From positions 1 through 64,000 of the forward strand of contig DAIDDL010000006.1 of assembly GCA_027309085.1 (NCBI GenBank): DNA of 64,000 bases, in the 5' to 3' direction. The stretch comes from Sulfobacillus sp. Its GTDB lineage: Bacteria > Bacillota > Sulfobacillia > Sulfobacillales > Sulfobacillaceae. Below, piece by piece: positions 31,122 to 41,385 of this stretch (positions are counted from its first letter, which is position 1; every line of letters starts with the position of its first letter). The translations under genes were made by a program, and so were the position numbers. Below the pieces are notes generated by a model. The model ran no database searches and had not been told where the DNA came from. It worked only from the letters and a program-made list of their open reading frames with translations.

Positions 31122-31199
31122 TGGTGGGCGGTACAGGACTCGAACCTGTGAACCTCTCGCATGTCAAGCGAGCGCTCTAACCAACTGAGCTAACCACCC
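31122..31199 (-). tRNA. tRNA-Val(GAC)
   Basis: Cloverleaf with anticodon loop TTGACAT, GGTTCGAGTCC T-arm, encoded CCA. Confidence 0.95.
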
Positions 31200-31208
31200 A
31201 CGTCAAAT

Positions 31209-31283
<75 letters not shown>

Positions 31284-31303
31284 TTATAATCAAGGCGGCA
31301 GAA

Positions 31304-31378
31304 TGGAGCGGAAGACGGGATTTGAACCCGCGACCCTTGCCTTGGCAAGGCAATGCTCTACCACTGAGCTACTTCCGC
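31304..31378 (-). tRNA. tRNA-Gly(GCC)
   Basis: Cloverleaf, anticodon loop TTGCCAA, encoded CCA. Confidence 0.95.
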
Positions 31379-31454
31379 ATCACGCTCTGCTAGTATAACA
31401 ACTTCTATCGCGTTGTGCAAGGGTATGTAACGGGGCCGCTAATATTTTATCCGC

Positions 31455-32297
31455 TTAGTACTGGTAAAAGCCGCGACCGTTTTTCTTCCCCAGCCTTCCC
31501 GCGCGCACCAGCCGGCGCAACACCTGGGGGGCGGCAAAACGGTCGTCATGAAATTCGTCATACAAATAATCCATGACTTCCAGGTCCACGTCCAGACCTG
31601 TGAAATCCGCCAGCGTCAAAGGCCCCATCGGATGATTGAGTCCGAGCTGCACGGCTTTGTCAATGTCTTCCTTGCTCGCGACGCCTTCTTCGAGAATGCG
31701 CATCGCTTCAATAAACAGCGGCATCAATATGCGGTTGACGACAAATCCCGGCGTATCCTTCTGCACGACGACGGTTTCTTTCCCCAATATCCGCGATATT
31801 TCCTGAACGTAAATGACCGTCTCATCACTGGTGTCCTCTCCGCGCACCAGCTCGACGAGCTTCATGACAGGCGCCGGGTTGAAAAAATGCATTCCGAGGA
31901 ACTGCGACGGCCGGCTGGTGGAGCGGCTCAATTCGGTAATCGAGAACGATGACGTATTGGTGGCGAGAATGGCTTCGGGACGGACAATGGCGTCCAGTGC
32001 CCGGAAGACAGATTTTTTGACGTCCATCACTTCCACGACGGCTTCGATAACCAGCTCCGCCTCATGAAAATCCTCCAGCGGAGCGTCCATCAAGCGGTCC
32101 ATCGCGTCTTCCACCGCCCCGGCCACTATTTGCCCCCGCGCCGCAGAACGGTTCAAGCGGCCCGCAATCCTGTCTTTGGCCCGGAGCACCGCCCCCGGCT
32201 GTGAATCGTGCATGAGCACTTTAAAACCGCTCAGGGCCGCCAGCTGGCTGATTCCTGACCCCATTGTGCCGGCCCCCACCACTCCAATAGTCTGCAT
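31455..32297 (-). CDS. 3-hydroxybutyryl-CoA dehydrogenase
   Basis: IGVVGAGTMGSGISQLAALSGF, HFFNPAPVMKLVELV, DTPGFVVNRILMP. Confidence 0.94.
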   Translation of the reverse strand: MQTIGVVGAGTMGSGISQLAALSGFKVLMHDSQPGAVLRAKDRIAGRLNRSAARGQIVAGAVEDAMDRLMDAPLEDFHEAELVIEAVVEVMDVKKSVFRALDAIVRPEAILATNTSSFSITELSRSTSRPSQFLGMHFFNPAPVMKLVELVRGEDTSDETVIYVQEISRILGKETVVVQKDTPGFVVNRILMPLFIEAMRILEEGVASKEDIDKAVQLGLNHPMGPLTLADFTGLDVDLEVMDYLYDEFHDDRFAAPQVLRRLVRAGRLGKKNGRGFYQY

Positions 32298-32314
32298 AGA
32301 TAAGCCTCCTCCAG

Positions 32315-33094
32315 TTAATAGCCCAAAATGTGAAACCCGCTATCCACAAACAAAATATGGCCCGTAATGTGCTTCGCCCAGTCTGACGACAGAAAAACGG
32401 CGGCATTGCCCACATCTTCAGTGGAAATGTTTTCCGGAATCGGCGCCCGGTCCTCGGTATTGTGCAAGGCTGCTGTAATACCCTTTACCCCTGCTGCGGC
32501 CAGAGTCTTCACGGGTCCCGCGGATATGGCATTCACCCGGATATGGTCCCGCCCGAGGTCGAAGGCGAGGTAGCGCACAGACGATTCCAGCGCGGCCTTG
32601 GCCACCCCCATCACATTGTAATTCGGCAGAACCCGCGTCGATCCTTGATAGGTCATCGCGACAATGCTGGCCTCTTTGGCTTTCAGCATCGAGGGGTATA
32701 AGGCGCGGGTCAATTCGGTCAGTGAATAAGAGCTGACGGACTGCGCCAGGGTGTATCCCTCCCGGGACGTGTTTAAAAATCTCCCCTCCAGGTCCGCGCG
32801 GTTGGCATAAGCAATGGAATGCACCAAAGAGTGCACCCCGCTCGGCGCCAACTTGTCCAAACTCTCGGTGAATTCCGCCATGAGGTCATCATTCATCACA
32901 TCCAGTAAGACCGTCTTGGCTGGTCTTTGCAAGTCTTCGATTAACTTGTCCAAATTTTCCTTCAAGCGGTCGTTCTGGTAGGTGAGGATCAATTCTGCCC
33001 CTTCACGCTCAAAAGCCCGGGCTATTCCCCAGGCGATACTCCGCTTATTGGCAATCCCTGTCACGACTGCCACTTTCCCATCCATTAGTCCCAA
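32315..33094 (-). CDS. fabI: enoyl-ACP reductase FabI
   Basis: GLMDGKVAVVTGIANKRSIAWGIARAFEREGAELILTYQ; SSYSLTELTRAL; LSSDWAKHITGHILFVDSGFH. Confidence 0.94.
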   Translation of the reverse strand: MGLMDGKVAVVTGIANKRSIAWGIARAFEREGAELILTYQNDRLKENLDKLIEDLQRPAKTVLLDVMNDDLMAEFTESLDKLAPSGVHSLVHSIAYANRADLEGRFLNTSREGYTLAQSVSSYSLTELTRALYPSMLKAKEASIVAMTYQGSTRVLPNYNVMGVAKAALESSVRYLAFDLGRDHIRVNAISAGPVKTLAAAGVKGITAALHNTEDRAPIPENISTEDVGNAAVFLSSDWAKHITGHILFVDSGFHILGY

Positions 33095-33137
33095 TGTTTC
33101 TCCCCCAGGCTGTTCCGATTTTTGCCATCATCATACC

Positions 33138-34154
33138 TCATCGGCGACTTTCGGGCCATACTGCCGGGTTCAGGAGATCCGCCGGGGCCTTCCCTTCCGC
33201 AAGCGACCGGATATTGGTCCAGGCCCGGCGGGCCATGGCGCGCCGCGTCTCGACCGTGGCCGATCCGATATGGGGCAAAAGGACTACCCCGGGCAATCCC
33301 AATAAGGGGGAATCTGGCGACAGCGGCTCCTGTTCGAATACATCCAGCCCCGCTCCCGCAATGCGGTGTTCCGCGATGGCCAGGACCAGCGCCGACTCAT
33401 CCACGACCGGGCCCCGGGCGGTATTGATCACCACGGCGTTACGGCGCATCCTGGCAAGAGCGCTGGCATCCAGCATGTGGTAGGTAGAAGGTGACAAGGG
33501 CACATGCAGGGAAATAATGTCGGACTCCGCAGTGACTGTTTCCCAATCCACCTGGTGGACGCCATCGGGCAAGTCGGGCACGGTACGCCGGCTATAGACC
33601 TGCACGGCCATCCCAAAAGCCTGGGCGCGCCGCAGCACCGCGCCAGCTATCCGCCCAAATCCGATCAGCCCCAGGGTTTTCCCATAGAGTTCAGCGCCGA
33701 GAAAGCCATCGGGGGACCACCCCGTCCACAGACCCTGGCGCAAGTCGTCCTCGGCGGAGCGCATCCGGCGCAGCACCACCAGCATCAAGGCCATGGCCAG
33801 CTCCGCCGTGGACTCGGTCAGCACATCCGGGGTATTGGTCGCCAGAATTCCTTGGGCAGTGAGCGCCGGTAAATCCAGATTGTCGTAGCCCACCGCCATG
33901 TTGCTGACAATTCGCAGATGCGGGGCCTGGTCCAGGAATTCCTGGTCTATCCTTTCCGTCAGCATGCATAAGACCGCGTCGGCCTCATGGACCCATTTGA
34001 GCAAAATGGCGCGCGGAATTGTTCCCTCGCCGCGCCAGTGAGCCACGGTCATTTCAGGACGCTCCCGGCTGATCTGCTCCCGCACCTCCGCATCGATCCG
34101 GCCGGTTATCACCAAATGCACAGAAATATTCCTCCCCTCACCGCATTCTCTCAC
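33138..34154 (-). CDS. D-isomer 2-hydroxyacid dehydrogenase (glyoxylate/hydroxypyruvate reductase-like)
   Basis: VSNMAVGYDNLDLPALTAQGILATNTPDVLTESTAELAM, LGLIGFGRIAGAV, LLPHIGSATVETR. Confidence 0.92.
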   Translation of the reverse strand: MRECGEGRNISVHLVITGRIDAEVREQISRERPEMTVAHWRGEGTIPRAILLKWVHEADAVLCMLTERIDQEFLDQAPHLRIVSNMAVGYDNLDLPALTAQGILATNTPDVLTESTAELAMALMLVVLRRMRSAEDDLRQGLWTGWSPDGFLGAELYGKTLGLIGFGRIAGAVLRRAQAFGMAVQVYSRRTVPDLPDGVHQVDWETVTAESDIISLHVPLSPSTYHMLDASALARMRRNAVVINTARGPVVDESALVLAIAEHRIAGAGLDVFEQEPLSPDSPLLGLPGVVLLPHIGSATVETRRAMARRAWTNIRSLAEGKAPADLLNPAVWPESRR

Positions 34155-34300
34155 CGTTCAGCCCTTAATTGCCGCAAAGAGCTCCTACCCCGTACATTAC
34201 CACAGGCTCTTGGAGGACTGTGCGGGGTACGGGGAGAAATGTCGTGAGAGAAATTCTCAGAAGGGGGCCGGGACCGTATGGGAGACAAATTTTCACAAGA

Positions 34301-35011
34301 TCAGTGGTATGAGGCAGGGCGCGCAGTCAGGACATAGACTTTATGAAACTGGATGCCGTACCGGGAGACTTGAGAGGCGGGTTCTTGAAAGAACAAGTCA
34401 ATATGGTCCCCGATAATGGCGGACCCCGTGTCTACGGCCCGCGCTGGGCCGTACCCGTCGATGTACAGATAAGTCCCCAGAGGAATAATGTTCGGGTCCA
34501 CCGCCACGTCTCCCGGATGCAGAGGCAGCCCATCCCAGGCCGCCACCGCACCCGACGGCCCGTTCATGGAATACTGGCCGTTATAAGCCGTCGTCAGGAC
34601 AGAGAAGACGCGGTCATAGGTATAAGAGACGCCGCCAATGGAGATAGCGTGCACGGGAGCGGTGCCTAGCGCCACCACCTGCTCCACAGGCGCACTCACC
34701 ACCGTTGTCACGGACCCCACACAAAATTCTGTGCCGGGCCGCCCCGGTTGCAGCAACAACGTCTGGCCTTGCGGCAGCGTGCTGTCCGCCACGGTTTTCA
34801 CCGGATACGGGATCGTGGCGAAATGCAAAGATTCCTCCGCAAATCCGTGGGAGGACCACGGCCACTGGGCCATCCGGTTGGGCGGCGCCGTGCTTGCCTG
34901 CACGGGGGCACCGGGTACCGCGCCTGCCAGGATCAGGCTCTGGGCAATCACGCCTGCGGCCACCGCCCATTTCATGCGCACCACCCCCCCTTCATTTGCG
35001 ATCATTTTCAA
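34301..35011 (-). CDS. 3D domain-containing secreted protein
   Basis: Signal-like N-terminus; C-terminal LTTAYN...GDVAVDPNIIPLGTYLYIDGYGPARAVDTGSAIIGDHIDLFF. Confidence 0.88.
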   Translation of the reverse strand: MKMIANEGGVVRMKWAVAAGVIAQSLILAGAVPGAPVQASTAPPNRMAQWPWSSHGFAEESLHFATIPYPVKTVADSTLPQGQTLLLQPGRPGTEFCVGSVTTVVSAPVEQVVALGTAPVHAISIGGVSYTYDRVFSVLTTAYNGQYSMNGPSGAVAAWDGLPLHPGDVAVDPNIIPLGTYLYIDGYGPARAVDTGSAIIGDHIDLFFQEPASQVSRYGIQFHKVYVLTARPASYH

Positions 35012-35308
35012 TTGCGATCATTAGAATTCCCCGGAGCCCGTATTTCATGCTCTGCCGCACTCTGAAAGCCGCGCCATCAGGAAAAACACCCGGTGACCCA
35101 GCGGGTTGGCCCGGATGGCTAGACATCTCCAAACGTTTGTTCCACAATAAGATTGTAGGGATGGAGCAGTCCGAATCGGTGCCCAGGGTTAGGTGGCGGG
35201 AGATTTCATTTGAGACCTACCTACGCCTTAAGAAGTGTGCTGCGCGGTCATGAGGGCTCTATGGGCCAAAGCTGTCCTATTGGCAACAGGAGGAGTGCCG
35301 GCAGAAAT

Positions 35309-35327
35309 CCCGGAAAGAAATTCCGGG
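35309..35327 (-). repeat. hairpin resembling the AATTNTT-loop hairpins of the 30-kb island
   Basis: Minus strand CCCGG-AATTTCTTT-CCGGG. Confidence 0.5.
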
Positions 35328-35370
35328 GCGGGTTTCACCCGTCCTATACGATACGGGCTGATTGAGGCGC

Positions 35371-35401
35371 AAAAATAAAATAACCCCGCATTCGTAGCGG
35401 G
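35371..35401 (-). terminator. intrinsic terminator of tRNA-Asp/Phe cassette 1
   Basis: Minus strand CCCGCTACGAATGCGGGG then TTATTTTATTTTT. Confidence 0.8.
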
Positions 35402-35414
35402 ACTGCGTTTTTAA

Positions 35415-35490
<76 letters not shown>

Positions 35491-35494
35491 GTTA

Positions 35495-35572
35495 TGGCGG
35501 AGGCGACGGGATTCGAACCCGTGGTCTCATGCGTGACAGGCATGCGTGTTGGGCCAACTACACCACGCCTCC
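35495..35572 (-). tRNA. tRNA-Asp(GTC), copy 1
   Basis: Cloverleaf, anticodon loop CTGTCAC, encoded CCA. Confidence 0.94.
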
Positions 35573-35743
35573 GCTTCAACTTTTTAATTATCCTAAAATT
35601 ATCGGCATTTGTCAAGCTATATTTCAATATCCATGCGGTTGGTATAGTCCGCTCCGGAAGCAATATTTCCAACCTGCCCAAACTTCTGAGGGCAATAGGG
35701 ATTCGATTCCTCTGAGTCAGTTCCCCTACGATTGACACTGCCA

Positions 35744-35911
35744 CTAGGGAGCCTCAGCCGCATCCATATATGAGAGCGGGTCAATCGCCGGAATGTCGAA
35801 CATGGGCTCCGCACACGCCCCAGCTTCCCCCAATAGGCGCGGCACCGGGGGGAAAACCTCAGTGCGCCCGGTGAAGTCCAAGGTTCGCTCTCGCTCCCTA
35901 TTATATTTCAT
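35744..35911 (-). CDS. hypothetical 55-aa protein between the duplicated tRNA cassettes
   Basis: ATG start at 35911: MKYNRERERTLDFTGRTEVFPPVPRLLGEAGACAEPMFDIPAIDPLSYMDAAEAP; weak RBS. Confidence 0.35.
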   Translation of the reverse strand: MKYNRERERTLDFTGRTEVFPPVPRLLGEAGACAEPMFDIPAIDPLSYMDAAEAP

Positions 35912-35940
35912 TGGCCACGGGCCTTCCCGCGTCACAAAAA

Positions 35941-35968
35941 AGAAAAAACCCTGCATCGGTTTGCAGGG
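35941..35968 (-). terminator. intrinsic terminator of tRNA cassette 2
   Basis: Minus strand CCCTGCAAACCGATGCAGGG then TTTTTTCTTTTTT. Confidence 0.8.
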
Positions 35969-35982
35969 TCTAAAATTTTTTA

Positions 35983-36058
<76 letters not shown>

Positions 36059-36063
36059 ATATA

Positions 36064-36141
36064 TGGCGGAGGCGACGGGATTCGAACCCGTGGTCTCATG
36101 CGTGACAGGCATGCGTGTTGGGCCAACTACACCACGCCTCC
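36064..36141 (-). tRNA. tRNA-Asp(GTC), copy 2
   Basis: Same sequence as copy 1. Confidence 0.94.
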
Positions 36142-36158
36142 GCTGGCTCTTACGCGAC

Positions 36159-36233
36159 TGGTAGGCGGAACAGGTCTCGAACCTGTGACCCCCTGCGTGT
36201 AAAGCAGGTGCTCTACCGCTGAGCTATCCGCCC
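36159..36233 (-). tRNA. tRNA-Val(TAC)
   Basis: Cloverleaf, anticodon loop TTTACAC, encoded CCA. Confidence 0.93.
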
Positions 36234-37415: not shown

Positions 37416-38393
37416 CTATTGCTGAGCTTTGACCGTTTTAATCTCTTCGGTCAACCGCGGCACTACCTGGAATAAATCGCCTACGATGCCGTAGTTGGCG
37501 ACTTTGAAAATGGGAGCTTCAGGATCACTATTAATCGCGACAATGTACTTGGATCCCGAGATACCGGCCAGGTGCTGGATAGCTCCTGAGATCCCCACGG
37601 CAAAATATACAGTCGGGCTGACCACTTTGCCTGTCTGTCCAATATGGTAGGAATGCGGCACCCAGCCTTCGTCAGCAACGGGTCTGGAAGACCCCACCGC
37701 GGCGCCCAGAGCCTGCGCCATGTCATCGAGCAGCTTAAAGTTCTCGGGCGCCTTGATGCCCCGGCCGCCCGACACGATGATATCCGCCTCGGTCAGTTCC
37801 AAAACCCCGCCCTGTGCCTCATTGCGTTCTACAACCACGGCCTGGAATGCTGCGCTGTCCACAGCCGGGGCAATATTCAAAATCTCCGGAGTGGCCGGCG
37901 CAGGCACCGCCGCATTGACATTGGGACGCAGGGAGAACATCTGCACGGGAGTGTTGACCGTGACCTCCGCCAGCGCCTTGCCCGCATAAACAGGACGCAC
38001 GGCCTTGACCCGGCCGTCCTCCCCGGCTTCCAGGTGCAGGCAATCCGTGGCCAGCCCGGCCTTGAGCACCCCGGCCAGGCGCGCCGACAAGTCTTTGCCC
38101 CAGGCCGTAGCGGGGAACAGAATCACATCGGGACCAAGCTCCGGCACCGCCTCGGCAATAGCCGCCGCAAACCCGTCAGAGCTATACCGCGCATACGCAT
38201 CCCCGTCCCAGAACAACACCTGTTCTGCGCCGTATTCGGCCAATTTGGCCAGGGTGTTCCGGGCGTCTTTGCCGAACGTCAGGGCCGTGACGGGACCGTC
38301 CCCAAGTGAACGGGCCACAGTCAGCATTTCCAGAACGACGTGGCGAATTTCGCCATTATTTTGATCGAAGATCACAAGCACGCCTTTAGCCAT
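37416..38393 (-). CDS. etfA: electron transfer flavoprotein alpha subunit
   Basis: [72 protein letters not shown]. Confidence 0.96.
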
Positions 38394-38405: not shown

Positions 38406-39173
38406 CTATAAAACTTTTGCCTCGCTGTGCAGCAGGCGGACCAGCTCTTTAGCGGTTTCTTCCGGCTCCCCGCTGAGAATCGTGGGTTCCGGACGTTCGG
38501 GCGGCGCAAACAGACGGTTCACGGTCACCCGGGGATCGAGCGCCAGGGATAGGGAGTCCATGCTGACTCTGCGCACTTCTTTTTTCTTGGCCTTCATGAT
38601 ATTCGGCAATGTCGGATACCGGGGCTCGTTCAGCCCCCGCTGAGCCGTCACGACGGCAGGATAAGGCAGTTCCACAATTTCGGTGGCGCCTTCCAATTCC
38701 CTTTCCGCCCGCAGCCGGTGTCCGGCTTCATCCACCTCTAGTTTCAGCACCACCGTCACCTGCGGCAGACCCAGATTCGCCGCAATCATCGGGCCCACCT
38801 GGGCGGAATCATCATCCACCGCCTGTTTGCCGGTGAGAATCAAGTCAAATCCTTCCTCGCCGCAGACGGCCGCGAGCGCTGTGGCCGCCGCAGCCGGGTC
38901 GACGGCCGCGTCTGTGCTGATGACCACAGCCCGGTCAGCTCCCATCGCCAGCGACTGGCGCACCGCCTCTTCCACCCGGCTGGGGCCTAAGGCCACAATC
39001 ACCACTTCCCCGCCCTGCTTCTCTTTAATCCGCAGCGCTTCTTCGATGGCAAATTCATCATAAGGATTAATGACCCACTTAATCCCGTCCTCCTGAATCC
39101 CCTGCCCGTCGGCTCGAATTTGAATCTTGGTTGCCGTATCCGGGACCTGTTTAACCGTCACCAAAATTTTCAT
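38406..39173 (-). CDS. etfB: electron transfer flavoprotein beta subunit
   Basis: MKILVTVKQVPDTATKIQ, NPYDEFAIEEALRIKE, GKQAVDDDSAQVGPMIAANLGLPQ. Confidence 0.96.
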   Translation of the reverse strand: MKILVTVKQVPDTATKIQIRADGQGIQEDGIKWVINPYDEFAIEEALRIKEKQGGEVVIVALGPSRVEEAVRQSLAMGADRAVVISTDAAVDPAAAATALAAVCGEEGFDLILTGKQAVDDDSAQVGPMIAANLGLPQVTVVLKLEVDEAGHRLRAERELEGATEIVELPYPAVVTAQRGLNEPRYPTLPNIMKAKKKEVRRVSMDSLSLALDPRVTVNRLFAPPERPEPTILSGEPEETAKELVRLLHSEAKVL

Positions 39174-39198
39174 CTAGTTGCGCGGGAAACCCCGGCGT

Positions 39199-39629
39199 TC
39201 AGGCCGGGAGGGATAGCGCGGCAGACGCCGGCTGCCCTCTTCCCGCTCCTCCTTTCGTTTGTAGAGCGATTTGTGTCCACGCATACCCATAGCCATCTGC
39301 CCGTTGAATGAGGGCACAGAAGCGATGGGAGATCCCTTGAACGAGTCTTAAAGTCGTTTGGATGTTGAAGCGACCGCTAGCCCGTATCGCGACACGTCCC
39401 ACGTAACTCCCGAATTTCTGGCCTGTCGTGACGACGACTCTCACCAGGTCTCCCGTCTGAAATCCAAAGGCCCGCTTGATCGGGTGAGATACCCCCGCGG
39501 AAAGCCCTGCTTCGTGAGGCGCGTGCGTTGATAACGGCCCCGTCCCGTCGCGGTGACGCGGAGCACAGGCTGAGACCAGATGTCAAGGACATCAACATGT
39601 CCCACGCAGGCGGCATCCAGACAGTGACT
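39199..39629 (-). pseudogene. iscB: IscB remnant: RuvC-III and C-terminal region only, one frameshift
   Basis: HCLDAACVG..VLRVTATGRGRYQRTRLTKQGFPRGYL / frameshift / IKRAFGFQTGDLVRVVVTTGQKFGSYVGRVAIRASGRFNIQT..VQGISHRFCALIQRADGYGYAW. Confidence 0.8.
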
Positions 39630-39903
39630 TTCTCCTTCCCCCTTACGGGGCTTGTGGCGCGAGCCTCGCGGCCCGGCTCCCCTCGGGAATGTCTGCAACC
39701 GGCTCTCACCTTACGGTGACGACGGAAACCTTCGGCGCTTTCCCTTTCGCCCACATGAGTCCCGCCTTCCAGTGTCCGGGACTGAGGAAGCATCCTGGAG
39801 TGGGTCGGGGCGACCTGCTGCAAACAGAGCAGATTGACGACAGCTTTCCCTGGTCAACCCAGCCTGTGTTCACAAGCTCCGCCCTTCAGGGCGGGGTAGT
39901 TGA
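39630..39903 (-). ncRNA. candidate IscB-associated omega RNA / HEARO RNA
   Basis: GTCAACTACCCCGCCCTGAAGGGCGGAGCTTG 5' hairpin, then CCAGGATGCTTCCTCAGTCCCGGACACTGGAAGGCGGGACTCATGTGGGCGAAAG..GGTTTCCGTCGTCACCGTAAGGTGAGAGCCGG..GCCCCGTAAGGGG immediately 5' of the IscB remnant. Confidence 0.7.
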
Positions 39904-39948
39904 CGGCATTCTCTCCCTTTTGCTCCCCTTGTAGTCACCCTGCCAGCC

Positions 39949-41331
39949 TTAAAGGGTCTCTTGAAGGGCCATCACTATAGTATCAATCAACAGAGATTCT
40001 TGACTAGGGAAAATTGTGCGCAGATCAAAAATTACAGATCCGTGGCTTATGCGGGCAATCACGGGCGGGTTGCCCAAACGCAGCCGCTGTTCGAGGCGCT
40101 GGGCGCCGTGAGCGTCTTCCGGGGTAATCCGGAGCACGCAGGAGGGAATTTGCGTGCCGGGCATAGACCCGCCCCCAATCTGCGCAAATCCTGGAGCAGT
40201 GTCGACCGCCACAGGAGCCAGAACACGCCCGCGCACTCTGGCGGCCAGTTCGGCCGCCCGCTCCTGCACAGAGTCCAGCGTCTCCGACATCATTTTCCAC
40301 AGGGGCAATTCCTGCGACCGCCCCTCCAGGTACCAGCGGATTGTCCATTCCAATGCGGTCAAGGTCATTTTGTCTACCCGCACCGCCCGGGCCAGGGGAT
40401 ATTTCTTCAACCGGTCGATGATAGGGGCTTTTCCCACAATAATTCCTGCCTGCGGCCCGCCTAACAGCTTGTCCCCGGAAAAGGTCACAATGTCTACCCC
40501 AGCTTGCACCACTTCCCTGACACTGGGTTCCACCACCCCATCCAGACGGAGTGGGTCAATGACTCCGCTGCCCAAATCTTCCATAACGGGAAGGCCTTTC
40601 TCGCGGCCAATTTTCACGAGCTCCGCCGTCGAGAGTCCCTCGGTGAAGCCGACAACCCGGAAGTTGGACTGGTGCACCTTGAGGAGCAGGCCCGTCTCCA
40701 GGTTGATGGCGCCGGTGTAGTCCCGCGCGTGTGTCTTGTTGGTGGCGCCCACTTCGCGCAGCACGGCCCCCGACAGAGCCATCACCTCGGGAATGCGGAA
40801 TGACCCCCCGATCTCCACCAGCTCTCCGCGCGACACAATCACTTCGCGGCCGCGGGCCAGAGCTGACAAGGCCATCAGCACCGCGGCAGCATTGTTGTTC
40901 ACCACCATCGCGGCCTCTGCTCCCACCAATTCCGCCAGCACGCGCGCGACGTGGTCATGGCGGGATCCCCGGTGTCCAGACTCCACATCGTACTCCAGGG
41001 TAGAGTACTGGGTGGACACCCGGCTGACGGCCTCCATGATTTCGGCGGGAAGGGGCGACCGGCCCAAGTTGGTATGGATCATCACCCCGGTCGCATTAAT
41101 GACAGGCACCAGGCTCGGCAGAGCCAGCTGGCGGGCCTCAGCCAAGACCTGCTCCACGACAGCGGCCAGTGGCGGCGGGGTCTCTCCCCGTCCGGCTTGG
41201 TCCCGCAAATCCAGGAGGGTGCGCTCAATGGCGCGCTGAATCCAGTAGCCTGCCACGGGAAGCGGTGAGGGCATGGATTGCCATATTTTTTGTACGGCGG
41301 GGATTTTTCTGCGGATATCCGGCCCTTGCAT
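39949..41331 (-). CDS. selA: L-seryl-tRNA(Sec) selenium transferase SelA
   Basis: LVPVINATGVMIHTNLGRSPLPAEIMEAV, NNNAAAVLMALSALARGREVIVSRGELVEIGGSFRIPEVM, TFSGDKLLGGPQAGIIVGK. Confidence 0.95.
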   Translation of the reverse strand: MQGPDIRRKIPAVQKIWQSMPSPLPVAGYWIQRAIERTLLDLRDQAGRGETPPPLAAVVEQVLAEARQLALPSLVPVINATGVMIHTNLGRSPLPAEIMEAVSRVSTQYSTLEYDVESGHRGSRHDHVARVLAELVGAEAAMVVNNNAAAVLMALSALARGREVIVSRGELVEIGGSFRIPEVMALSGAVLREVGATNKTHARDYTGAINLETGLLLKVHQSNFRVVGFTEGLSTAELVKIGREKGLPVMEDLGSGVIDPLRLDGVVEPSVREVVQAGVDIVTFSGDKLLGGPQAGIIVGKAPIIDRLKKYPLARAVRVDKMTLTALEWTIRWYLEGRSQELPLWKMMSETLDSVQERAAELAARVRGRVLAPVAVDTAPGFAQIGGGSMPGTQIPSCVLRITPEDAHGAQRLEQRLRLGNPPVIARISHGSVIFDLRTIFPSQESLLIDTIVMALQETL

Positions 41332-41385
41332 GATTACTGCAACACTCCTAAGACAGGGCCACACGGTTGTGGCCCTGTTTGTCAG

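Follow-up and report, generated by a model that had tools for sequence, protein, structure and literature searches.

IscB, the ancestor of Cas9, is carried by mobile elements (ISC, OMEGA) together with a HEARO/omega RNA (RF02033), and terminal hairpins are the defining ends of elements of the IS200/IS605 type. HEARO insertion sites reportedly read ATGA or GTGA, and stand-alone omega RNAs are said to occur in Ktedonobacter. To our knowledge, it is poorly explained how IscB elements are maintained in compact genomes while sparing the genes that they enter. The locus described here lies in a stretch of 64,000 nucleotides from a Sulfobacillus sp. contig (DAIDDL010000006.1), the whole of which we refer to as the window. 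It shares with the described systems the RNA scaffold, the end hairpins, a guide in the 5' flank, an NTGA-type flank and iscB relatives, but here the nuclease has been deleted.

Several other systems offer points of comparison. For IsrB, the reported TAMs are NTGA, NTG or NTGG (PMC9581776), and the flank of the elements studied here is likewise ATGA or GTGA; however, the TAM of IsrB is described as necessary for cleavage, whereas the presumed TAM here falls on the start codons of host genes. According to the same paper, the PLMP domain of IsrB is similar to the IF3 N-terminal domain and makes contact with the omega-RNA SD, which is possibly a further link between IscB-type elements and translation starts. 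The experimental precedent for split ribosome-binding sites (RBSs) comes from T4 genes 25 and 38, in which the SD lies too far from the AUG and a hairpin cuts the spacing from 27 to 11 nt and from 22 to 5 nt, respectively (PMC3014915). The present locus would resemble IStrons in that an IS element carries an RNA device that makes its insertion harmless, but the IStron device is a self-splicing group I intron (PMC4227781), whereas an Rfam scan of the window element matched no intron family. Start-codon targeting or an element-borne RBS finds no mention for IscB/HEARO in the literature searched, a partial selection to which the original HEARO, ISC and OMEGA papers do not belong.

A gutted IscB element between selA and etfB

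The element occupies 731 bp of the minus strand and is internally deleted (Table 1). Its limits were set by alignment with the 5' ends found at the 13 HEARO loci and with about 25 3' ends of other copies: the 5' ends of all HEARO-bearing copies start with GTCA and are preceded by unrelated flanks, while the 3' ends read GGTTTCCCGCGCAANTGG and are followed by ATGA. The element has the features of the IS200/IS605 type (ISC), with subterminal hairpins at both ends, a conserved flanking tetranucleotide and no target duplication at the insertion. Neither promoters nor terminators were found inside the window element. A preliminary description of this locus had recognized an IscB-type element with both end hairpins kept, as the alignments bear out. 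The limits that it gave, 39183-39903, identified the right locus but not the exact ends, of which 39904 lies one base and 39174 nine bases further out. What it overlooked is the main feature, namely, the insertion between the RBS and the start codon of etfB together with an element-borne RBS.

Table 1. Features of the selA-etfB locus in window coordinates, with strand and basis of assignment
Feature	Position	Strand	Basis
IscB/HEARO element, 731 bp	39174..39904	-	ends by alignment of sister 5' and 3' ends; empty site in 7/7 congeners
5'-end hairpin CCCCGCCCTGAAGGGCGGAGC	39876..39896	-	sequence; equivalent hairpin in sister copies
3'-end hairpin CCCGGCCTGAACGCCGGGG	39190..39208	-	sequence; counterpart in nearly all copies
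Omega/HEARO RNA scaffold	39671..39904	-	Rfam RF02033, 94.3 bits, full model 1-211
Presumed 20-nt guide (5' flank)	39905..39924	-	directly 5' of HEARO start; contains displaced etfB SD
Displaced etfB SD AAGGGAG, inside guide	39913-39919	-	same SD in relatives' empty sites
Deletion junction near 39625 (2-nt microhomology CA; 963 bp missing compared with C118)	39624..39627	-	three-way alignment with C118 and C84
iscB remnant: RuvC-III motif HCLDAACVG and WED/TI C-terminal region	39199..39628	-	ORFs 39441-39698 and 39199-39444; alignment
Element-borne SD AAAGGAGGA, 75 nt upstream of etfB ATG	39247..39255	-	anti-SD duplex -11.6 kcal/mol; conserved in 24/25 genus copies and other phyla
Looped-out structure, stem GCGGGAA (39240-39246) / TTCCCGC (39182-39188)	39182..39246	-	MFE folds; constant looped spacing; cross-phylum covariation
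ATGA, presumed TAM and etfB start codon	39170..39173	-	ATGA at copies' 3' flank; 7 relatives share the start codon
selA, upstream host gene on the same strand	39949..41364	-	TIGR00474 selA, 546 bits
etfB, host gene downstream	38406..39173	-	NCBIfam and Pfam matches
etfA, after etfB	37416-38393	-	NCBIfam and Pfam matches

The omega RNA is complete up to the former start of iscB, with one pair broken in an internal stem. The covariance-model search that the preliminary description had proposed as a check matched RF02033 over its full length and above the gathering score of 83 (E 5.5e-18). The element as such is far beyond a chance resemblance, with 28 places in the same genome similar to it. Most of the nuclease, by contrast with this scaffold, has been lost. 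The preliminary description had noted that RuvC-I/II, the bridge helix and HNH are missing and that the remainder is frameshifted; alignment with C118, the best-matching full-length sister (98% identical), agrees and adds the PLMP domain to the losses, the window copy showing a single gap of about 963 bp that opens shortly upstream of the iscB ATG and closes at HCLDAACVG. The remnant has two frameshifts, one near 39480 and the second within the terminal hairpin, and the frame at 39199-39444 stops at a TGA inside the hairpin loop; no ORF of the window copy combines RuvC I-III, a bridge helix and HNH.

Intact iscB genes are present elsewhere in the genome, among the 13 HEARO loci; this search, and that for matching ends, had likewise been suggested beforehand. 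The gene is uninterrupted and close to full length in C84, C87, C139:96354 and C83, the IscB of C109b is without about 20 residues before RTK, and iscB is partly deleted in C96, C150 and C119. C118 itself has an in-frame TGA in iscB. Breakpoints differ in every damaged copy, and no deletion type was found twice. C84 and C87 belong to the subfamily of the window copy (77% identical), and C84, whose omega RNA is about 84% identical to that of the window, encodes the nearest intact IscB. A second subfamily, composed of C139b (at 95-98 kb of C139), C83 and C109b (L048, L049, L050), precedes GTGA, and the C83 element lies before a prephenate dehydrogenase gene with a GTG start. In C96 (L045) and C150 (L042) the internally deleted iscB still has an open frame, which stops at the flanking ATGA, and C118:25736-27404 (L041) is missing one of the terminal hairpins, with no ATGA next to its 3' end. 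Elsewhere in the window, eight tRNA genes form two clusters on the minus strand (31125-36233).

The insertion point and the start codons of host genes

The selA-etfB site is empty in 7 of 7 congeneric genomes, in which the spacer is short and a strong SD stands 8-9 nt before ATGA (for example, AAGGGAGAGATAGCG followed by ATGAAAATT in G007). In the window, the element separates the etfB SD from the etfB start codon: the native SD (AAAAGGGAGAGAATGCC) now lies beyond the element, within the presumed guide, while ATGA provides the start codon of etfB. The preliminary description was right to place the guide in the flank 5' of the element. A displaced SD is found in the guide of 7 of 9 copies of this genome, and across phyla it is modestly enriched (42% vs 17%).

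Sister copies show the same layout. Among the genus copies, 23 of 25 3' ends are followed by an ORF that begins at the flanking ATG and is at least 140 aa long, against a background of 14.5% of the ATGA in the window (P about 1e-17, a value that is too small because the copies are related). The products of xth, rpe, aroQ, proC and trpF fit their family profiles from the first few residues of the protein, and the starts after these element ends are, judging from the profiles, bona fide N-termini. The layout extends to other phyla as well: among 37 loci of other genera with a HEARO match, mainly from Proteobacteria and Nitrospirae, 31 of the 33 ends that could be located lie before an ORF of 100 aa or more. 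Two IscB elements (L133 and L170), in MAGs assigned to two different phyla and labelled Chitinophaga and Leptospirillum, both sit at the xth start codon (xth encodes exodeoxyribonuclease III). A start-codon rule for all HEARO was considered and rejected; several distant loci of the phylum deviate, and the rule is followed in part. We presume that these IscBs use ATGA as their TAM, an assignment supported by the NTGA-type TAMs published for IsrB (PMC9581776). The start-codon position could also reflect mere survivorship of NTGA insertions.

A further feature of the flanking tetranucleotide concerns IscB itself. In C84 and C87 the IscB frame continues across the terminal hairpin, and its stop codon is the TGA within the flanking ATGA; the same holds, with ATGA (or TGATG), for relatives in Acidithiobacillus, Paraburkholderia and other taxa; in C118, from which the TAM has been lost, the frame continues into the flank. 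Overlaps of the ATGA or TGATG type mediate termination-reinitiation (PMC6728339). The intact IscBs of the subfamily are alike in overlapping the host gene by ATGA or TGATG, but differ from the described cases in that the target site supplies the stop codon. The window copy has lost this stop-start overlap.

The element 3' end as a putative split ribosome-binding site

Where a site is filled, the element end takes up the canonical SD window of the host gene and has no SD there (median -2.2 kcal/mol to the anti-SD), whereas the element SD, AAAGGAG(G), is strong (median -8.7 kcal/mol) and lies 53-77 nt upstream. For the window copy, the SD at the 3' end, AAAGGAGG, stands 75 nt from the ATG in linear distance and 10 nt from it with the terminal stem-loop looped out. 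In contrast to T4 genes 25 and 38 (PMC3014915), the split RBS would be carried by a mobile element to any gene that it enters. The 5' arm of the stem, GCGGGAA, adjoins the element SD and the 3' arm, TTCCCGC, stops about 8 nt short of the ATG. Between the arms, hairpin length differs by about 24 nt from copy to copy, but with the hairpin looped out the spacing falls within 7-11 nt, with a mode of 10, in 23 of 24 measured genus copies, the 24th being one with a mis-assigned arm.

The outer stem hardly differs among copies of the genus, and covariation there is uninformative; the evidence for covariation of the stem comes from comparison between clades, that is, from other phyla. There the arms change together (GCGGGA/TCCCGC, GCGAGA/TCTCGC, GCGTGA/TCACGC), and the variable stem position is Watson-Crick in 55 of 68 ends (37 G:C, 10 A:T and 8 T:A), compared with a mean of 29 and a maximum of 42 in shuffles. 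An SD stands before the 5' arm in most of these 68 ends. With a distant SD, an intervening stem and a looped-out spacing of 7-11 nt as opposed to a linear one of 53-77 nt, the 3' end of the element reads as a putative built-in split RBS resembling that of T4 gene 25.

Proposed mechanism and alternatives

A decayed IscB/omega-RNA transposon sits between the etfB SD and its ATGA, and we consider it quite likely, from the arrangement of these features, that the host gene is served by the split RBS of the element. In the proposed mechanism, ATGA would double as TAM and start codon, and insertion would push the native SD to the 5' side of the element; because the displaced SD thereby becomes part of the omega-RNA guide, the guide would target the empty allele. 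The host gene, deprived of its SD, would be translated from the element SD; by folding, the terminal stem-loop would leave about 10 nt between this SD and the ATG, which would make it a split or "accommodated" RBS. Where a copy of the subfamily is intact and its IscB ends on the TGA of ATGA, translation may additionally be coupled by termination-reinitiation, and in the window copy the split RBS alone would remain for etfB. Given an element with no promoter or terminator, the omega RNA would be made by read-through within the selA-etfB-etfA transcript, and it could serve an IscB encoded elsewhere.

The broader proposition, which we hold to be likely, is that a widespread IscB/HEARO clade specializes in the invasion of translation starts: the start codon doubles as the TAM, the SD passes into the guide, the host receives a split RBS (plus an ATGA overlap if IscB is intact) and the remnant is kept as an RBS after loss of the nuclease. 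If true, landing on a start codon with an RBS of its own would be the translational counterpart of the splicing trick of IStrons, the NTGA-like TAM would be explained and the source of omega-RNA guides would be predicted. For the window locus, it would account for how a gutted IscB copy can persist harmlessly in an operon.

Three other readings bear on different parts of this proposal. One is that the element is simply dead, the hairpin being kept for transposition and the SD-like AAAGGAGG for IscB coding, with translation of etfB weakened or otherwise driven. Such hairpins do define the ends of IS200/IS605-type elements, their additional role in transposition could alone conserve the hairpin, and the IscB reading frame covers part of the SD. 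However, the element SD is kept even where the IscB tail reads through it in another frame (TKGGAG vs EKEDAG, that is, KGG vs KED) and in iscB-less remnants before rpe (C66), aroQ (C150b) and yqeK-rsfS (C117b), the looped-out spacing is constant, and the stem and the adjacent SD covary across phyla; we regard a dead element as improbable. Less probable still is a nonautonomous element, as the preliminary description had suggested, here taken to be MITE/PATE-like and mobilized in trans by a Y1 transposase. Both ends are intact and the genome has five Y1 tnpA genes, but the deletion occurs in no second copy, the several copies with one shared internal deletion that characterize MITEs and PATEs were not found, and a search around the five tnpA loci gave no match to the ends of the window element. 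A mobilized derivative would show a repeated deletion type, and for this reason a nonautonomous element is so far unsupported; we think it very unlikely.

A third reading builds on the suggestion of the preliminary description that an orphan guide RNA could be used by an IscB in trans: the window omega RNA would still be functional, the IscB of C84, C87 or another copy would use it to cut the empty selA-etfB allele, and the gutted element would home by recombination repair. Such trans use is possible, if unproven, because the 13 HEARO loci of the genome include intact iscB genes; moreover, the window scaffold is complete up to the iscB start, both element ends are intact, and in the empty allele the guide is followed by ATGA. 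Against it, the IscB of the sister C118 carries a TGA, the omega RNA that accompanies the intact IscB of C84 shares only about 84% identity with that of the window, a pair is broken in one stem of the latter, and each deletion type is unique. Retention of the omega RNA was considered as a sign of selection and rejected, since a random 963-bp deletion would spare it about 60% of the time. Comparison of the guide with genomic targets, proposed in the preliminary description, gave four sites elsewhere in the genome with 2-3 mismatches, 0 of which are followed by NTGA. We view a functional orphan guide as rather doubtful, and the window omega RNA is probably without a strong selected role.

The putative split RBS is also pertinent to the short remnants of such elements. 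Solo 3' ends lie directly before rpe (L025, C66), aroQ (L027, C150:26758) and yqeK-rsfS (L024, C117:120766), each with the SD and the stem kept. In the MFE fold of the short remnants C66 and C150b the SD is paired with CCCUCC instead. From their position and retained motifs, the solo 3' ends before rpe, aroQ and yqeK-rsfS are possibly domesticated ribosome-binding sites.
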